DNA from: Streptomyces sp. ICBB 8177
Lineage (GTDB): Bacteria > Actinomycetota > Actinomycetes > Streptomycetales > Streptomycetaceae
Assembly: GCF_003144095.1 (NCBI RefSeq)
Contig: NZ_NSKH01000023.1
Coordinates: 965,611-1,029,610 of the forward strand
Direction: 5' to 3'
Length of the DNA: 64,000 bases
Positions within the stretch are counted from its first letter, which is position 1; the number at the start of each line of letters is the position of its first letter. This document shows positions 83 through 8,407 of the stretch, piece by piece. The position numbers were made by a program, and so were the translations under genes. The notes beneath the pieces were generated by a model, which did not search any database, was not told where the DNA came from, and worked only from the letters and a program-made list of their open reading frames with translations.

Positions 83-115
83 GTGTACCCGGATACACCA
101 GAAGGCAGGGAACAC

Positions 116-919
116 ATGAGGCAGGTCGCGAAGAAGGGCCTGATCACCGCTGTCGCCACCGGAGGCGTCCTCGCCGTCACCGGCGGCTGCGCCTACGCGG
201 ACGCGGGCGCGACCGGAGCCGCGGTCGGATCCCCCGGGGTCCTGTCCGGCAACACCGTCCAGGTGCCGGTCCACGTGCCGGTCAACGTCTGCGGCAACAC
301 CGTCAACGTGGTCGGCGCGCTCAACCCGGCGTTCGGCAACAAGTGCGCCAACGTCTCGGCCCACCACGGCCACGGTCACGGCGCCGGGCACGCCGCGGCG
401 GGCTCCGGCGCGGTCGGCCACAGCGTCGGCTCCCCGGGTGTCGGCTCGGGCAACACCGCGCAGGTGCCGGTCCACGTCCCGGTGAACGCGTGCGGCAACT
501 CCGTCGACGTGGTCGGCGCACTCAACCCCACGTTCGGCAACAGTTGCGGCAACGTCTCGGTCACCCACGAGCACAAGCCCACTCCGCCGCACCACTGCCC
601 GCCGCCGCATCACGTGACGCCGCCGCAGCACCACCACCACGGCCACCAGCCGCCGCCGCACCACTGCCCGCCGCCGCACCACGTGACGCCGCCGCAGCAC
701 CACACGCCGCCGGCCCCCCAGCACCACACGCCGCCGGCGCACCACGCGCCCGTCCCGTCGCAGCCGGTGCACTACGCCCCGCCGCAGCACGTGACGACGC
801 CGCCGGTGCTCGCGCACACCGGTGCCGACCAGGCCGGGACCGCGGGCATCGCCGGTGCCGCGTTCCTGCTCGCCGGTGTCACGCTGTACCGCAAGGGACG
901 CGCCGTAGCCGGTCGCTGA
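116..919 (+). CDS. Long chaplin with two chaplin domains and a sortase signal
   Basis: Chaplins are secreted amyloid-forming surface proteins that make streptomycete aerial hyphae hydrophobic; long ones are attached to the wall by sortase. The start chosen (116) gives a Sec signal peptide ending near residue 30 (CAYADA). Two chaplin domains follow (about 38-81 and 108-152), each with the hallmark VNxCGNxVxVVGALNPxFGN pattern and two cysteines. A linker of about 80 residues rich in His and Pro leads to LAHTG (232-236), a hydrophobic segment and a basic tail, the class E sortase layout. It corresponds by position and architecture to chpC of S. coelicolor, but the linker is unlike the Gly/Pro/Asn linkers I know from that family. 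Whether it is the chpA, chpB or chpC orthologue cannot be settled from the sequence alone. Confidence 0.93.
   Translation: MRQVAKKGLITAVATGGVLAVTGGCAYADAGATGAAVGSPGVLSGNTVQVPVHVPVNVCGNTVNVVGALNPAFGNKCANVSAHHGHGHGAGHAAAGSGAVGHSVGSPGVGSGNTAQVPVHVPVNACGNSVDVVGALNPTFGNSCGNVSVTHEHKPTPPHHCPPPHHVTPPQHHHHGHQPPPHHCPPPHHVTPPQHHTPPAPQHHTPPAHHAPVPSQPVHYAPPQHVTTPPVLAHTGADQAGTAGIAGAAFLLAGVTLYRKGRAVAGR
584..703 (+). repeat. 51-base direct repeat inside the chaplin linker
   Basis: Bases 584-634 recur at 653-703 with one mismatch, a period of 69 bases or 23 codons. Each copy encodes a PPHHCPPPHHVTPPQHH-type unit, so the linker carries paired histidines and one cysteine per repeat. This is a coding repeat produced by local duplication. 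Confidence 0.9.
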
Positions 920-1280: not shown

Positions 1281-1943
1281 ATGTCTGATGCCGCGCAGCC
1301 AACCGTTGCCGAGGTACGCGCCGCCGCCGAGGCGGTCAAAGCAGCCATCGACCGCCATCTGGCCGCCATCGAGAACCGCATCGGCGACGACGACCCGGCC
1401 GTCTTCGCCGCGTTCGACGACCTCGCCACCGCGGCCGAGGCCTACGACGAGCTGCTCTACGACACCTATGACGAGGTCACGCCCTTCGAGATCCCCACGG
1501 ACACGCTGCCCGCCTACTCCGGGCCCAGGGAGCCGAACGCGATCAGCCTGCTGATCCGGCGCGACTACGCCGTCACCGACCCGCAGCGGCTGCTCGCCCA
1601 GGCCGAACGCGTCGGCGGCCCGGCCGGTGCGGGCGGCGGCGGGGTGGGCGCCGGGATCGGCGTGCTGTTCGGCGAGTTCGAACCGGACGAGATCGCCGCG
1701 CGCCACAAGGAGTTCGGTTTGGAGGAGGGCGACTCCACGCTGTGGGTGTCGGCCGCGGAACCCGCGGAGCCGGGGGAGTGGCTGTCCGCGCCGTTCGACC
1801 AGGCCGACCCCGCCATGGTGATCTGCCGCTTCGACGTCAGCGCGGTCTTCGACGACGAGGGCGACGAGGACTACGACGGGAACGGCGCCACCAAAGCCGC
1901 GAGCGGCGGCGCCGGGACGGCGGGGGCCACGACGGACGACTGA
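1281..1943 (+). CDS. Conserved streptomycete protein of unknown function
   Basis: A 220-residue soluble acidic protein with no signal peptide or membrane segment. Residues 1-75 are helical and rich in Ala/Glu (MSDAAQPTVAEVRAAAEAV), the middle has a conserved-looking LLIRRDYAVTDP segment near residue 95 and a glycine run near 117-123, and the last 40 residues form a low-complexity acidic then Gly/Ala/Thr tail. I do not recognise a characterised family. The start at 1281 was chosen because the helical domain begins there and a -10-like TAGCGT lies 7 bases upstream. It converges on the RecD2-like gene and is separated from it by a 14-bp perfect stem. Confidence 0.75.
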   Translation: MSDAAQPTVAEVRAAAEAVKAAIDRHLAAIENRIGDDDPAVFAAFDDLATAAEAYDELLYDTYDEVTPFEIPTDTLPAYSGPREPNAISLLIRRDYAVTDPQRLLAQAERVGGPAGAGGGGVGAGIGVLFGEFEPDEIAARHKEFGLEEGDSTLWVSAAEPAEPGEWLSAPFDQADPAMVICRFDVSAVFDDEGDEDYDGNGATKAASGGAGTAGATTDD

Positions 1944-1994: not shown

Positions 1995-4178
1995 TCAGGC
2001 CTGCGCGACCGCCTCCGCGTCCGCCGTCTGCTCGCGCAGGACGGCCCGCAGCCGTGTCGTGCGCTCCTTCGCCGGGACCTCCCGTACCGCCTGGGCCAGC
2101 ACCTGGTCGACACCCTGGACGACGGACAGGTGGCGCTGCGCACGGCTGAACGCCGTGTAGACCCAGGAGCGGGTCAGCGACGGCGCGGCGTCGCCCGGCA
2201 GCACCACGACCACCGCGGGCCAGCACGTGCCCACCGCCTGGTGCGCGGTGACCGCCCAGCCGTGCCGCAGCGCGCCGCGCACCCGCTCCGGCGGCACCAC
2301 GACCGGCGTGCCCTCGCAGTCCAGGCGCAGGCCCTCGGCGTCACCCGAGACCACGGTCCCCGGCACCGCCAGGCCGGGGCCCTGCACGTACACCACCCGG
2401 TCTCCGGGGTCGAAGCCGGCGAACCGGCCGGGGCCGGGATTCAGCCGTTCCTTGAGCGCCGCGTTGAGCGCCCGCGTGCCCGCCAGGCCGCCGTGGCCGG
2501 GGGTGACGACCTGGGTCCGCTCCGCCGGGACGCCGATGACCCGGGGCACGGAATCGGCCACCAACTGCACCGTGCGGTGCACCGCCTCGGCCGGCTCGCG
2601 CACCGGGACGATCACGACTTCCCTGCCCGGCGCCTCGACCGGCTCCAGCTCGCCGATCGCGATGCCCGACACCAGGTCGCCGACCGGGCCCGGGTCCGGG
2701 GTGCGCGAGACGACCTGCGGGCACACCTTCGCCGCCAGCAGGTCGGCGAACGCCCGGCCGGGACCCGCCGACCACAGCACCGCGGGATCGCCGCTGAGGA
2801 CCAGCCGCGCGCCGTCCGGCACCGCCTCGACCAGCGTCGCCGCGCGCTCGACGTCCAGCTGCGGCGCGTCGAGCACGGCCAGCAGGTCGAGTTCGAGCGC
2901 GCCGTCCGCGCCGCGTCCGGGGCCCTCGGCGCCGGAGAGCAGCCCGTCGACGGTGACCGCGGCGCCCTCGGCCCCGGTGCCCAGCAGCGCGGCCAGCCGC
3001 CGCCTGCCGCCCTCGGTGTGCGCCGCCGCCCAGGCGCGCAGCCCGGCGGCGCGGGCCGCAGCGACCAGGGCGGCCGGCTCGGCGCGGGCCGCCTCGCCGC
3101 CGGTGTGCGCCACCAGACCGCTCCCGGCGACGGCCCGGACCAGCGCGGCGGCCGACGGCGAGGGCGCGGCGGCCTCGATCGCGGCCCAGTCCGCCCGTCC
3201 GCGGGCGGCGACGGGGACGGCGGCGTCGTCCTCGGCGCCGGTGCCGGCATCGGCCGCCGCGGTGTCGCCACCGGCAGCCTCCTCGGCGGAGCCGTCCGTC
3301 CCGGCCGCGTCCGCCTCGGCCTCACCGCCCAACGGCGGCCCCCCGTCGCCCTGTTCGCCCGATTCCGCCTCGAAGGTGTTCAGCAGCCGTACCAGCCCGT
3401 CCGCGAGGCTCTCCTCGGCCAGCGCGTACCGGTCGAGCGCCAGCAGCACGGTGACCGGCGGCCCCTCGTCGCCGGAGGGCGCGGGACGTCCCGCGCCCTC
3501 CGGCTCGTCCTGGAAGACCATCACCTGGCCCTCCTCGACAGCCCTGCGCAACGCGTCCTCCGCGTCCGGCACCGACTGCCCGCGCAGTGCCTCCAGCAGT
3601 ACGGACCATTCCAGCGCGGTGTGCCCGGCGTCCGCGGCGCGGCGCATCAGCCAGCCGGTGACGGCCCGGCCGCGCCGCTCGTCACCGGGGCCGCAGGCGT
3701 CGCCGAGCAGCACGCGGGCGAAGCCGTCCGCCTGGTCGGGCCGCACCCCCGAGAGGGAGAGCACCAGCCAGGGGTCCTCGGCGAGCAGCTCCCCGGCGCG
3801 CTCGCCGAGCGCCTCGACGGCGGGGCCGGCCAGCGTCTGAGGCGCTCCACCCCGCGCCAGCACCGCCCGCGCGGCGGCCAGCGGCTCCTGGGGCAGCGGC
3901 GCGGAAGGCGCGGGAACGGCGGCGGGGGCCGCGGCGGGAGGCGCCGCCGGGGCGGACGCGGGCGCCTCGGCACGCGGCCGGGGCGGCGCCGACGCGGCAC
4001 GGGACTCGTCGGCCGGTTCGCGGCGCTCGATGGCCTTCACGGCCGCCGCGAGCCGCGCGAGCTCAAGGGAGCCGCCCGGCGCCCCCGCGCCACCGGCGGC
4101 GGACTGCCGTCCGGTCGGCTCCGCCCGCCCGGGCGTGCGCTCCGCCGGTGCCCCGTCCGCCCCGTCCGTGCTGCTCAT
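1995..4178 (-). CDS. RecD2-like pseudo-helicase with degenerate ATPase motifs
   Basis: This 727-residue protein has the outline of a RecD2-type SF1 helicase. Residues 1-110 are low-complexity Pro/Ala. Residues 117-215 resemble the RecD2 helix-hairpin-helix region (LSGVRPDQADGFARVLLGD, then AGHTALEW). Residues 345-485 align with the first motor domain, but the Walker A position reads TGGEAARAE (359-367) where GGPGTGKT is expected, so the catalytic Lys is lost. The Walker B position reads AVLDAPQLD (434-442) where a DEAS motif is expected. The second motor domain keeps motif V-like TAHQAVG (644-650) and motif VI-like YTAFSRA (674-680). The frame is intact and codon use matches its neighbours, which argues against a decaying pseudogene. 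ATP hydrolysis is unlikely; a DNA-binding or partner-binding role is inferred. It may be cotranscribed with the aldo/keto reductase 22 bases upstream. Confidence 0.8.
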   Translation of the reverse strand: MSSTDGADGAPAERTPGRAEPTGRQSAAGGAGAPGGSLELARLAAAVKAIERREPADESRAASAPPRPRAEAPASAPAAPPAAAPAAVPAPSAPLPQEPLAAARAVLARGGAPQTLAGPAVEALGERAGELLAEDPWLVLSLSGVRPDQADGFARVLLGDACGPGDERRGRAVTGWLMRRAADAGHTALEWSVLLEALRGQSVPDAEDALRRAVEEGQVMVFQDEPEGAGRPAPSGDEGPPVTVLLALDRYALAEESLADGLVRLLNTFEAESGEQGDGGPPLGGEAEADAAGTDGSAEEAAGGDTAAADAGTGAEDDAAVPVAARGRADWAAIEAAAPSPSAAALVRAVAGSGLVAHTGGEAARAEPAALVAAARAAGLRAWAAAHTEGGRRRLAALLGTGAEGAAVTVDGLLSGAEGPGRGADGALELDLLAVLDAPQLDVERAATLVEAVPDGARLVLSGDPAVLWSAGPGRAFADLLAAKVCPQVVSRTPDPGPVGDLVSGIAIGELEPVEAPGREVVIVPVREPAEAVHRTVQLVADSVPRVIGVPAERTQVVTPGHGGLAGTRALNAALKERLNPGPGRFAGFDPGDRVVYVQGPGLAVPGTVVSGDAEGLRLDCEGTPVVVPPERVRGALRHGWAVTAHQAVGTCWPAVVVVLPGDAAPSLTRSWVYTAFSRAQRHLSVVQGVDQVLAQAVREVPAKERTTRLRAVLREQTADAEAVAQA

Positions 4179-4200
4179 CGTGCTTCCTCGCCTGCCTCAC

Positions 4201-5181
4201 TCACAGCGTGCTCCAGCCGTCGTCCGGGTACCGGTGCACGGGCGCCGACACGTCGTCCAGCGCCTGGTTGATCTCTTCCGGAAGCGTAAGGGCCTCCACT
4301 GACAACGCCTCGCCGAGCTGCCGCGCGTCGCGGGCGCCGAGGACCGGCGCGGTCACCCCGGGCCGGTCGCGCACCCACGCGAGCGCCACCTGGAGCGGGG
4401 AGACCGCCAGCCCGTCGGCGGCGGTCACCACCGCGTCGACGATGTGCCCGGCCGCGTCGTCCAGGTAGGGCGCGACGAACGGCGCGAGGTGTTCGGATGC
4501 GCCCCGGGAGTCCTGCGGGACGCCGTTGCGGTACTTGGCCGTCAGCACCCCCCGGCCCAGCGGCGAGGAGGGCAGCAGGCCCACCCCGAGGTCGCGTGCG
4601 GCGGGCAGCACCTCGCGCTCCACCCCGCGTTGCAGCAGCGAGTACTCCATCTGTATCGAGGCCAGCGGGGTCCGGCCGATGCCGGCGAGCTGCCAGGTGG
4701 CGGCCTTGGCCAGCTGCCAGCCGGAGAAGTTCGACACCCCGGCGTAGCGCGCGCGTCCGGTGGAGACCGCGATGTCCAGCGCCTGGAGCGTCTCCTCCAG
4801 CGGCGTCCCGGCGTCGAAGGCGTGCACCTGCCACAGGTCCACGTGGTCGGTGCCCAGCCGCCGCAACGAGGCGTCCAGCGCGGACAGCAGGTGGCCGCGC
4901 GAGCAGTCGAAGCGCCGGTCGGGGTGCGGGACGCTGCCCGCCTTGGTGGCGATCACCAGGTCGGAGCGTGGCACGAGGTTCTCCAGGAGCCGCCCGAGCA
5001 GGTACTCCGCCCCGCCGTCGGCGTACACGTCGGCGGTGTCGACCAGGCTGCCGCCCGCTTCCCAGAAGGTCTTCAGCTGGTCCGCCGCGTCGCGTTCGCC
5101 GGTGTCCCGGCCCCACGTCAAAGTGCCCAACCCCAGTCGCGAGACGCGCAACCCCGTACGGCCGAGATGCCTTTGCTCCAT
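4201..5181 (-). CDS. Aldo/keto reductase
   Basis: A 326-residue NADPH-dependent aldo/keto reductase, predicted cytoplasmic TIM barrel. Family marks are the N-terminal LGRTGLRVSRLGLGTLTWG, the catalytic Asp/Tyr region DTADVYADGGAEYLLG (about residues 50-65), ATKAG with the catalytic Lys, LWQVHAFD near the catalytic His, GVSNFSGWQL, and PLGRGVLT in the cofactor loop. The start at 5181 gives the family's MEQRHLGRTG beginning; the reading frame stays open further upstream but that extension has no family similarity. It is divergent from the LLM-class oxidoreductase (128 bases between starts). Substrate unknown. Confidence 0.9.
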   Translation of the reverse strand: MEQRHLGRTGLRVSRLGLGTLTWGRDTGERDAADQLKTFWEAGGSLVDTADVYADGGAEYLLGRLLENLVPRSDLVIATKAGSVPHPDRRFDCSRGHLLSALDASLRRLGTDHVDLWQVHAFDAGTPLEETLQALDIAVSTGRARYAGVSNFSGWQLAKAATWQLAGIGRTPLASIQMEYSLLQRGVEREVLPAARDLGVGLLPSSPLGRGVLTAKYRNGVPQDSRGASEHLAPFVAPYLDDAAGHIVDAVVTAADGLAVSPLQVALAWVRDRPGVTAPVLGARDARQLGEALSVEALTLPEEINQALDDVSAPVHRYPDDGWSTL

Positions 5182-5308: not shown

Positions 5309-6358
5309 ATGCGGCTCGGCATCAACCTCGGCTACTGGGGTGCCGGAATGGACGCGGACAACCTCGCGGTCGCGCGCGAGGCGGACCGGCTCGGCTACGC
5401 GGTCTGCTGGGCCGCCGAGGCGTACGGGTCCGACGCGGCGACCGTGCTGTCGTGGGTGGCGGCCCAGACCGAGCGGATCGACGTCGGCTCCGCGATCTTC
5501 CAGATCCCGGCGCGCACCCCGGCGATGACCGCGATGACCGCCGCCACGCTGGACACCCTCTCCGGCGGCCGGTTCCGGCTGGGCCTCGGCGTGTCCGGGC
5601 CGCAGGTGTCCGAGGGCTGGTACGGCGTGAAGTTCGACAAGCCGCTGGCGCGCACCCGCGAGTACGTGGAGATCGTCCGCAAGGCGATGTCCCGCGAACG
5701 CCTGTCGCACGAAGGCGAGCACTGGACGCTGCCGCTGCCCGGCGGCCCCGGCAAGCCGCTGAAGCTGACGGTGCACCCGGTGCGCGAGCACATCCCGCTG
5801 TACATCGCCGCCATCGGCCCGAAGAACCTGGAGCAGACCGGCGAGATCGCCGACGGCGCGCTGCTGATCTTCCCCTCCGCCGAGCACCTTCAGGAGACCG
5901 CCATCGCCCCGATCCGCGCGGGCCGCGAGAGGGTGGGCCAGACCATGGACGGCTTCGACGTCTGCCCGACCCTGCCGATCGCGCTCGGCGACGACGTGGA
6001 CGCGCTGGCCGACCTCTTCCGCCCGTACACCGCGCTGTACGTCGGCGGCATGGGCAGCCGCAAGCAGAACTTCTACAACCGGCTCGCCCAGCGCATGGGG
6101 TACGAGAAGGAAGCCGCCGAGATCCAGGACAAGTACCTGGCCGGCGACAAGGACGGCGCCGCCGCCGCCGTGCCGCGCGACCTGATCGACTCCACCAGCC
6201 TGCTCGGCGGCGTCGAGCGCATCGCCGACCGCATGCGCGCCTACGCCGAGGCGGGCGTCACCACGCTCACCCTGACCCCGGCGGGCTTCACCCTGGACGA
6301 GCGGCTGGCGGCCCTGCGCGCCGGAGTCGAGGCAGCGGAGCACGCCGGCCTGGCGTGA
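5309..6358 (+). CDS. LLM-class F420-dependent oxidoreductase
   Basis: A 349-residue luciferase-like monooxygenase/F420-dependent oxidoreductase. It starts MRLGINLGYWGAG, continues with the TIM-barrel strands typical of the class (VCWAAEAYGSDAATVLSWVA, then IDVGSAIFQIPARTPAMTAM), and contains the GRFRLGLGVSGPQVSEGWYG region seen in F420-binding members. Such enzymes use reduced deazaflavin F420 for hydride transfer, but the substrate cannot be read from the sequence. The start at 5309 has an AGGGAGA ribosome site 5-11 bases upstream. It is followed by a 17-bp perfect stem. Confidence 0.9.
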   Translation: MRLGINLGYWGAGMDADNLAVAREADRLGYAVCWAAEAYGSDAATVLSWVAAQTERIDVGSAIFQIPARTPAMTAMTAATLDTLSGGRFRLGLGVSGPQVSEGWYGVKFDKPLARTREYVEIVRKAMSRERLSHEGEHWTLPLPGGPGKPLKLTVHPVREHIPLYIAAIGPKNLEQTGEIADGALLIFPSAEHLQETAIAPIRAGRERVGQTMDGFDVCPTLPIALGDDVDALADLFRPYTALYVGGMGSRKQNFYNRLAQRMGYEKEAAEIQDKYLAGDKDGAAAAVPRDLIDSTSLLGGVERIADRMRAYAEAGVTTLTLTPAGFTLDERLAALRAGVEAAEHAGLA

Positions 6359-6389
6359 TCCCACGCGCCGCGGCCCGGCCCGTGCCGGA

Positions 6390-6434
6390 CACCCGCCCGG
6401 CGGCGGACGTCCAACGCCCGCCGCCGGGCGGGTG
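6390..6434. terminator. Bidirectional terminator
   Basis: A perfect 17-bp stem (6390-6406 with 6418-6434) with an 11-base loop lies between the convergent stops at 6358 and 6473. Confidence 0.8.
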
Positions 6435-6472
6435 GTTGACGGCCACGTCAGGGTCAGGCCGGCGTAAGCCCG

Positions 6473-7078
6473 TCAGTGCGGAACGAGCCGCCCCAGCAGA
6501 CGGCCGAAGTCGATCAGACGGGCTATCTGCCCCGGGCCGCCGTCCTCCAGCGACTTGCTGAAGCGGAACGCCTCGGGGCGCAGCCGTGCCGAGGCGACCG
6601 GGGAGTCCGGATCGGTCTGCACGGCGCTCAACTCGTGCGGCGTGGCGGTCGCGAGGACCAGGTAGACGCCGCGGTCCACCCGGGCGCCGCGCTCGTCGCG
6701 CCCCACCAGCGTGCGCATCCCGACGTGGCCGATCGCGCCCAGCGGCAGCACCTGGATCGAGGAGTCCAGCACCGTGCCCCCGGGCGCCGCCTCGTCGGCC
6801 AGCTCCTCGCTGTGCCACAGGATGAGCCGGCGGCCGTCGCACACGGCCGCCTCCTGCCACACCGACGCCCCCGCCTCCGTCAGGTCCACCACCCGCTCCA
6901 GGGTGAAGCCGCGCACCTTGCGGCGGCCGAGCACCCCGCCGACCGCCTCCAACGCGACGTCCGCGTGCAGGAAGTAGGCCCGGGCGGCGTCCTCCAGGCG
7001 GGTGTACGGCGACCAGTCGGACCCGGCAGGTCCCAGACGTCCCGTCCCCGGACGACTTCTGGCCGCCTTGCTGAACAT
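6473..7078 (-). CDS. Conserved hypothetical protein
   Basis: A 201-residue soluble protein beginning MFSKAARSRPGTGRLGP. I do not recognise the family. The body alternates beta and helix: YFLHADVALEAVGGVLGRRK, then LTEAGASVWQEAAVCDGRRL, then TVLDSSIQVLPLGAIGHVG and GVYLVLATATPHEL, ending in a helical segment (GQIARLIDFGRLLGRLVPH). No signal peptide, membrane helix or metal motif is visible. The start is uncertain: a GTG two codons earlier (VDMFSK) is possible, and the open frame continues upstream into sequence that looks non-coding. It lies downstream of corA on the same strand but with 336 bases between, so separate transcription is likely. Confidence 0.7.
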   Translation of the reverse strand: MFSKAARSRPGTGRLGPAGSDWSPYTRLEDAARAYFLHADVALEAVGGVLGRRKVRGFTLERVVDLTEAGASVWQEAAVCDGRRLILWHSEELADEAAPGGTVLDSSIQVLPLGAIGHVGMRTLVGRDERGARVDRGVYLVLATATPHELSAVQTDPDSPVASARLRPEAFRFSKSLEDGGPGQIARLIDFGRLLGRLVPH

Positions 7079-7414
7079 GTCCACCTGCTTCGCGATCCCG
7101 TCCCCTGGTGTCCCACTGCCCTTTGGCACCTTACCCAGCCATACCGACAGGCACGGGGGAGAACTGCGGTGAAAGGGCTGGGGCGGCGGCGCGCGGGCCG
7201 GGACGGGCACATCGGGACGGCCCGGACAGGACGGCGGACAGCGCCGGTGCGGAGGGCGCGTCGCACCACGTCGTGACGTTTCTGCGGCCGTGGTGGGGGC
7301 TCGGGGGGTCTTCCCCGCCACGGCCGACACCCCTTCAACGCCCCGGCGGCCGAAGGGTTACGGGTCCGGCGGCGGGCGACAGGCGGCGTGCGGCGAAGCG
7401 CGGCCGCCGGTCGC
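7079..7414. other. Intergenic region between corA and the conserved hypothetical gene
   Basis: These 336 bases hold no convincing gene. They contain the corA terminator hairpin (7286-7325) and, nearer 7078, presumably the promoter of the hypothetical gene; I could not pick out a clear -10 box. Confidence 0.6.
7286..7325 (-). terminator. Probable corA terminator
   Basis: A 13-bp stem with one G-T wobble (7286-7298 with 7313-7325) lies downstream of the corA stop in the direction of its transcription. Confidence 0.6.
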
Positions 7415-8407
7415 TCACAACCAGTCGCGCTTGCGGAAGAACCGGTAGAGCACCGCGCACACCATGAGCATGCCGACCAGCACCACCGGATAGCCGTAGC
7501 GGGTGTGCAGCTCCGGCATGTGGTCGAAGTTCATGCCGTACACCCCGGCGATGAGCGTGGGCACCGCCGCGATCGCCGCCCACGCGGAGATCTTGCGCAT
7601 GTCGTCGTTCTGCCGCACGCCCACCTGCGTCAGATGGGCGCCGAGTATGTCGGTCAGCAGCCGGTCGAGCCCCTCGACCTGCTCGGTGACGCGGGCGAGG
7701 TGGTCGCTGACGTCGCGGAAGAACGGCCTGCTGCGCGGGCTGACGTACGGCACGCCCGCCTCCGCGAGCCGCCGCATCGGCTCGACGAGCGGCTGCGTCG
7801 CCCGGCGGAACTCCAGCACCTGCCGCTTGAAGCCGTAGACCCGGCTCGCGGTGTTCTTCGCGTCGGCGCCGTCCGGCGCGAAGACCTCCTCCTCCAACTG
7901 GTCGAGGTCCACCTGCAACTCGGCCGCCACGTCGATGTAGTGGTCCACGGTGGCGTCGCCGACCGCGTACAGCACCGCGCAGGGGCCGTGCGCCAGCACC
8001 TTCGGGGCCTCCTCCAGGCGCCTGCGCACCTCCGCCAGCGCCTGCCCCTCGCCGTGCCGCACCGTCACCACGAACGAGTCGCCGACGAAGACCATCAGCT
8101 CCTCCGTGGACACGCTGGAGGTCGCGTCGTCGTACGTGCACGGCTTGAGCACCAGGAACAGCGAGTCGTCGTAGACCTCCAGCTTGGGCCGCTGGTGCGC
8201 GGTGAGCGCGTCCTCGACCGCCAGCGGGTGCAGCCCGAACTCGCCGGACACGAGCGAGAACTCCTCCGGCGTGGGCTCGTGCAGCCCGATCCACAGGAAC
8301 GCGTCGCCGTCCCTGCGGGCCTCGGCGAGGGCGTCGGAGAAGTCGGCGGGGCCCGGGGTGCGGTGCCCGCCCTTGTAGATGGCGCAGTCCACGATCACGC
8401 CGGACAT
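7415..8407 (-). CDS. corA: CorA-type magnesium/cobalt transporter
   Basis: A 330-residue CorA family divalent cation channel. The N-terminal two thirds form the cytoplasmic domain (IGLHEPTPEEF, LHPLAVEDALTAHQRPK, then FLVLKP), followed by the long stalk helix (EFRRATQPLVEPMRRLAEAG and LLTDILGAHLTQVGVRQND). The first membrane helix ends in the signature YGMNF (GMN selectivity motif) near residue 294, and the second ends at the basic C-terminal tail FFRKRDWL. Length is normal for the family. It assembles as a pentamer in the plasma membrane and is gated by cytoplasmic Mg2+ in known members. It is divergent from the histidine phosphatase gene. Confidence 0.95.
   Translation of the reverse strand: MSGVIVDCAIYKGGHRTPGPADFSDALAEARRDGDAFLWIGLHEPTPEEFSLVSGEFGLHPLAVEDALTAHQRPKLEVYDDSLFLVLKPCTYDDATSSVSTEELMVFVGDSFVVTVRHGEGQALAEVRRRLEEAPKVLAHGPCAVLYAVGDATVDHYIDVAAELQVDLDQLEEEVFAPDGADAKNTASRVYGFKRQVLEFRRATQPLVEPMRRLAEAGVPYVSPRSRPFFRDVSDHLARVTEQVEGLDRLLTDILGAHLTQVGVRQNDDMRKISAWAAIAAVPTLIAGVYGMNFDHMPELHTRYGYPVVLVGMLMVCAVLYRFFRKRDWL

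Follow-up and report, generated by a model that had tools for sequence, protein, structure and literature searches.

Why does a streptomycete keep an intact gene for a RecD2-like protein whose ATPase motifs are gone? The question is raised by a gene, here called pseudo-RecD2, in the window, the stretch of 64,000 nucleotides from Streptomyces sp. ICBB 8177 that was analysed as a whole. The gene occupies 1995..4178 on the minus strand, with an ATG at 4178 and a stop ending at 1995, and encodes 727 residues. Its ribosome-binding site, GAGGAAG (4183..4189, minus strand), lies within the 22 nt between its start and the stop of an aldo/keto reductase (AKR) gene (4201..5151, minus strand; PF00248), which is directly upstream and, by synteny, a conserved neighbour. 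The other side of the locus is marked by a convergent gene (1281..1943, plus strand), which is conserved by synteny, has no Pfam or NCBIfam match, and is kept in several actinomycete families even where the RecD2-like gene is missing. Among the neighbours of pseudo-RecD2 in the window, no nuclease gene was identified. Two genes away, at 83-919 (plus strand), inspection by eye revealed a probable ChpC homologue, a secreted chaplin-like protein that has two repeats of the chaplin type and, at its C-terminus, a sortase-type LAHTG motif. A conserved protein without a Pfam match is encoded at 6473-7330 (minus strand), between luciferase-like and CorA genes. As the gene lies between mshC and the chaplin gene, pseudo-RecD2 presumably corresponds to about SCO1672 of S. 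coelicolor. No paper on SCO1670-SCO1673 was found in the open-access literature, and the accessible part of Rocha et al. (2005) lists RecD2 in Streptomyces with the two copies not separated.

The first point to settle was what the protein has kept and what it has lost. Like the SF1B helicase RecD2 (D. radiodurans 3e1s/3gp8 and B. subtilis), it has the order HHH - 1A - 2A/2B and a C-terminal motif. Its N-terminal HHH_RecD2 domain spans residues 104-187 (3618..3869, minus strand; Pfam PF14490, 27.2 bits against a cut-off of 27), and a UvrD_C_2 match with motifs V and VI covers residues 639-687 (2118..2264, minus strand; PF13538, 38.2 bits). Unlike RecD2, it lacks both Walker motifs, the Gln of motif III and motif IV. 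The same genome has a separate, intact canonical RecD2 (L001), with 840 bits to the RecD2 equivalog model TIGR01448; pseudo-RecD2 scores 101.7 bits, far under the curated cut-off of 500. When the two proteins are aligned, TGGPGCGKS of L001 corresponds to TGGEAARAE in the former Walker A (residues 359-367; 3078..3104, minus strand), and VVDEAS corresponds to VLDAPQ, in which LDAP (residues 436-439; 2862..2873, minus strand) is aligned to DEAS of Walker B. Because of a two-residue deletion, the exact position of the lost Walker A Lys depends on the alignment. Motif III has changed from GDxxQLPS to GDPAVLWS (GDVDQLPSV in L001, GDPAVLWSA here), and motif IV from FRQ/LHRQ to SRTPD. Motif V is partly kept as TAHQAVG, and the Arg of motif VI, R679, is invariant in a 25-row alignment. 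Thus, by the usual marks of RecD2 membership, the N-terminal HHH_RecD2 domain is present, and the GGxGxGK[ST] of Walker A and the DE of Walker B are absent. The first-pass annotation had described a RecD2-like protein in an intact frame that retains the HHH domain and the second motor domain with Walker A and B lost; the frame and both domain matches were recovered, and the replaced residues read exactly as claimed. No canonical Walker A was found elsewhere, as GxxxxGK[ST] does not occur anywhere in the 727 residues, and the sole match among the orthologues, in L008, lies outside the homologous region. Two other leads were dropped. The C-terminal RxTRLxxLL is not a new pseudohelicase motif, since it is also present in Walker-intact and, more loosely, in canonical RecD2 proteins; and with regard to an anti-phage role, PADLOC gave only weak generic matches to the helicase C-terminus.

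Where such a protein comes from can be seen in the wider family. Relatives were collected by a profile search of the class, then fetched and aligned; families are given as codes, with f1 being the Streptomycetaceae. Walker-intact members occur in f7, f10, f12, f14, f16, f18 and f21. These orthologues (L066-L070, L078-L085 and L087; 325-437 bits to TIGR01448) are in the same clade as pseudo-RecD2 and, where flanks are available, at the same locus, but carry full GGPGTGKS, DEAS or DETS, GDPAQLPS and HRAQGSEW motifs. Dead members comprise all Streptomycetaceae examined, f17, in which the copy is full length with Walker A replaced differently from f1, and f8. Short dead forms of roughly 320-430 residues (trimmed to homology) are present in f28, f31, f2, f20 and f6; they keep the two RecA-like domains but little of the HHH domain and the 2B insert. 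Wherever enough flank is present, dead, short and intact forms share one chromosomal setting, with the AKR gene upstream, followed by genes for a histidine phosphatase, a DUF3090 protein and an SCO1664-family protein and by mshC. The exception is f18, in which the AKR gene was not seen and the histidine phosphatase gene is the near neighbour; a PMT_2-like (below cut-off) membrane glycosyltransferase-type gene also lies there, at 6260-8206 (plus strand) of L084, a few nucleotides after the Walker-intact copy and on the same strand. In f1, f8, f6 and some members of f31 and f28, the other side of the locus carries the same convergent gene. Canonical RecD2 genes are located elsewhere in the genomes. 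This is thus one ancestral gene and not a repeated capture of fragments. In f13, f19 and the f17 genera g33, g62 and g95, the AKR gene is present and no RecD2-like gene was found beside it.

The distribution of canonical RecD2 bears on one possible job for the dead copy, namely that of an antagonist or decoy that tunes the activity of canonical RecD2 by competing with it for the same DNA or for the same contacts with SSB/RecA. In favour of this idea, Streptomycetaceae and f17 have both a canonical RecD2 and the dead copy, and RecD2 of Bacillus acts with RecA and SSB (PMC12143592). However, in f28, f31, f2, f20 and f6 dead copies persist with no canonical RecD2 found above the cut-off, which argues against a general antagonist role, and we regard this explanation as improbable. 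Among families with the intact form, f18 has a canonical RecD2 as well; in f7, f10, f12, f14, f16 and f21 none over the cut-off was found, so that the intact form is the strongest RecD2-like gene there. Several actinomycete families, represented by L090-L097 and L099, seem to be devoid of any canonical RecD2 that passes the family cut-off.

How often the motor was lost was addressed with three trees. In a gene tree made without the Walker columns, all dead rows form one clade (100/99), and the intact forms and canonical RecD2 fall outside it; the dead genes evolve fast, so long-branch attraction is a worry for this tree. A tree of rpoB from 24 genomes of the same set has a single branch between the dead and the intact families (92/88, recovered in 97% of bootstrap trees). 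The AKR tree on its own does not bring the dead families together, and in that analysis f22 (L098) was scored as dead, although it is represented only by an N-terminal piece next to a contig end. The gene and rpoB trees are best read as a single, ancient loss of the ATPase and do not favour several independent losses. The term pseudohelicase, as defined for Deinococcus PriA, implies descent from an active helicase. Here, such descent is indicated by the gene tree and by the Walker-intact orthologues at the same locus, whose activity is read from their motifs. It also implies that the catalytic motifs were lost and the gene maintained, as is found in the replaced motifs, in the occurrence across Streptomycetaceae genomes and in the dN/dS values given below. 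Judged by sequence comparison, the gene is a member of a long-lived actinobacterial pseudohelicase lineage.

Is the gene then still under selection, or is it simply decaying? An orthologue was found in 119 of 121 Streptomycetaceae genomes; the relatives known by name are Streptomyces, Kitasatospora, Actinacidiphila and Streptantibioticus. The two genomes without one are fragmented assemblies (670 and 1650 contigs), one of which has a contig that breaks off at the reductase gene. All well-assembled orthologues that were re-read have an open frame, and the 'stops inside' flags that were re-read, at nine loci, all lay at the normal C-terminus. G073, from a 76% complete genome, is broken across several frames, and G083 is split over two. 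Two Streptomycetaceae orthologues (L177 and L178) have a much longer stretch between HHH domain and motor in a single open frame. In close pairs dN/dS is 0.13-0.30 (pooled, 0.22), compared with 0.10 for the adjacent AKR gene, a clear sign of purifying selection at the level of codons. Conservation, dN/dS and intact frames rule out simple decay or sequencing error, and conservation and dN/dS also rule out chance, in keeping with the annotation's view that this is not a fresh pseudogene. At the reductase locus, several f17 genera and genomes of f13 and f19 lack the gene, and some families show progressive shortening, as a functionless relic on its way to loss might; against the dN/dS well below 1, the near-complete occurrence, the intact frames and the retention since the ancestor of several families, we consider a relic very improbable. 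As the ATPase-dead copy is still preserved by selection, it should have a useful job other than DNA unwinding.

The replaced site itself could be thought to do that job. The degenerate motifs, for which a survey of streptomycete orthologues had been suggested, are common to all examined, and besides the Walker motifs (I and II), motifs III and IV are missing from the Streptomycetaceae sequences too. None of the 82 distinct Streptomycetaceae sequences covering the site has a Walker A or GK[ST] there, and the Asp of Walker B is lost in 82/82, with Asp at the Glu position in 82/82. This Asp, D437, is thus invariant, and E367 is found in 76/82; together with the conserved H358 and G360, they might form a site rebuilt for another ligand or ion, which would make the protein a sensor or a new enzyme. 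In wider pairs, with dS partly at saturation, dN/dS is 0.23 for the segment of the former Walker A and 0.21 for that of Walker B, against 0.36 for the whole protein. However, by column entropy the two segments are only moderately conserved (31st and 18th percentile), and f17 and the short forms do not share these residues, so a rebuilt site seems quite improbable to us. The most conserved windows are instead residues 491-501, 525-537, 560-586 and 637-654, mainly in domain 2A and motif V, with the lowest-entropy windows at 560-586 in domain 2A (2421..2501, minus strand).

Structure prediction agrees with retention of a folded body. Among solved structures, the closest by sequence is RecD2 of Deinococcus (3e1s; E 1.5e-15). 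The AlphaFold model of the 727 residues (mean pLDDT 75.8, with disordered N-terminus and linker) matches 3e1s with Z 29.6 and rmsd 3.1 A over 493 aligned residues at 26% identity; the next structural match is RecD of RecBCD, with Z about 19. The linker (residues 267-328; 3195..3380, minus strand) is acidic and weakly constrained (dN/dS 0.86 in the wider pairs), with pLDDT mostly below 50. A dead form of 381 residues was predicted from only 8 sequences with mean pLDDT 89.6 and Z 26.3 against 3e1s over 340 residues. The RecD2 fold is thus retained in both predicted models, and it appears from them that a folded body of two domains has been preserved by selection even where little of the HHH domain and the 2B insert remains.

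What might this body do? By analogy, the retained parts would point to a static component of recombination or fork metabolism that binds DNA or protein. In the explanation that we prefer, and to which as a whole we give about an even chance, the locus first held a working RecD2-type SF1B helicase, which is still Walker-intact in actinomycetes of other families. ATP binding and hydrolysis would have been lost once, in an ancestor common to Streptomycetaceae and several families related to them, with the folded protein kept. The protein would now be a static part that holds ssDNA or DNA at forks, a partner from repair or replication, or both, through the 2A/2B-motif V face of the former motor and also, in Streptomycetaceae, through the HHH domain. 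Any helicase activity would come from the separate canonical RecD2 of the genome. For DNA or fork binding together with a partner, we put the probability at about one half. DNA binding is not assured, as the protein is acidic and short dead forms have lost most of the HHH domain; with the 2B insert also reduced in these forms, DNA binding may not be what the dead forms have in common. The charge of the protein, which has 4 Lys in 727 residues and no domain with raised basic charge, was judged uninformative or mildly adverse as a sign of DNA binding. The same observations suit a protein-interaction scaffold that does not bind DNA, in which a partner from repair, replication or metabolism would dock on the RecA-like domains, and the HHH domain would be a leftover. 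The reductase gene adjoins in nearly all families examined, and the short forms are still predicted to fold confidently. In Streptomycetaceae and f17, however, both the HHH domain and the 2B region have been retained under constraint, and we regard such a scaffold as a serious but rather unlikely alternative.

The static, binding part that we prefer has known precedents. The dead SF1 domains of RecC and AddB use an old ssDNA track to read Chi (PMC4824097), a mode to which that of pseudo-RecD2 is likened. As here, the SF1 fold was kept after loss of the ATPase motifs, but those are UvrD-like domains inside a helicase-nuclease complex, whereas pseudo-RecD2 is an SF1B RecD2 relative beside a reductase gene. 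PriA of Deinococcus radiodurans, a bacterial fork helicase that has lost Walker A/B and its ATPase, still binds DNA and DnaB (PMC4504706); it belongs to another helicase family and has milder motif changes, whereas pseudo-RecD2 is a paralogue with its motifs replaced outright. RecD2 that is active works at forks together with SSB and RecA (PMC12143592). The annotation had proposed a helicase fold recycled for DNA or protein binding, perhaps as a regulator of replication or recombination. Loss of the motor with long retention is strongly supported, and binding is the natural reading that fits these precedents; no specific regulatory role could be shown by computation.

Pseudohelicases as such are already known, and the new element is one that derives from RecD2 and is conserved over several actinomycete families, of which no description was found in the open-access literature. 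To our knowledge, few bacterial pseudohelicases with a long evolutionary record are known. Tentatively, and with less than an even chance of being right by some way, the protein may be a conserved recombination or fork factor made from a motor-dead RecD2, which like RecC/AddB would read DNA structure or sequence and control resection or restart in Streptomyces and relatives, with the cut-down form as its minimal working core. The gene is nearly universal in Streptomycetaceae, and the label 'RecD-like helicase' would mislead. Intact, dead full-length and dead cut-down copies at one locus provide a natural series for the use of a helicase fold after loss of its motor.
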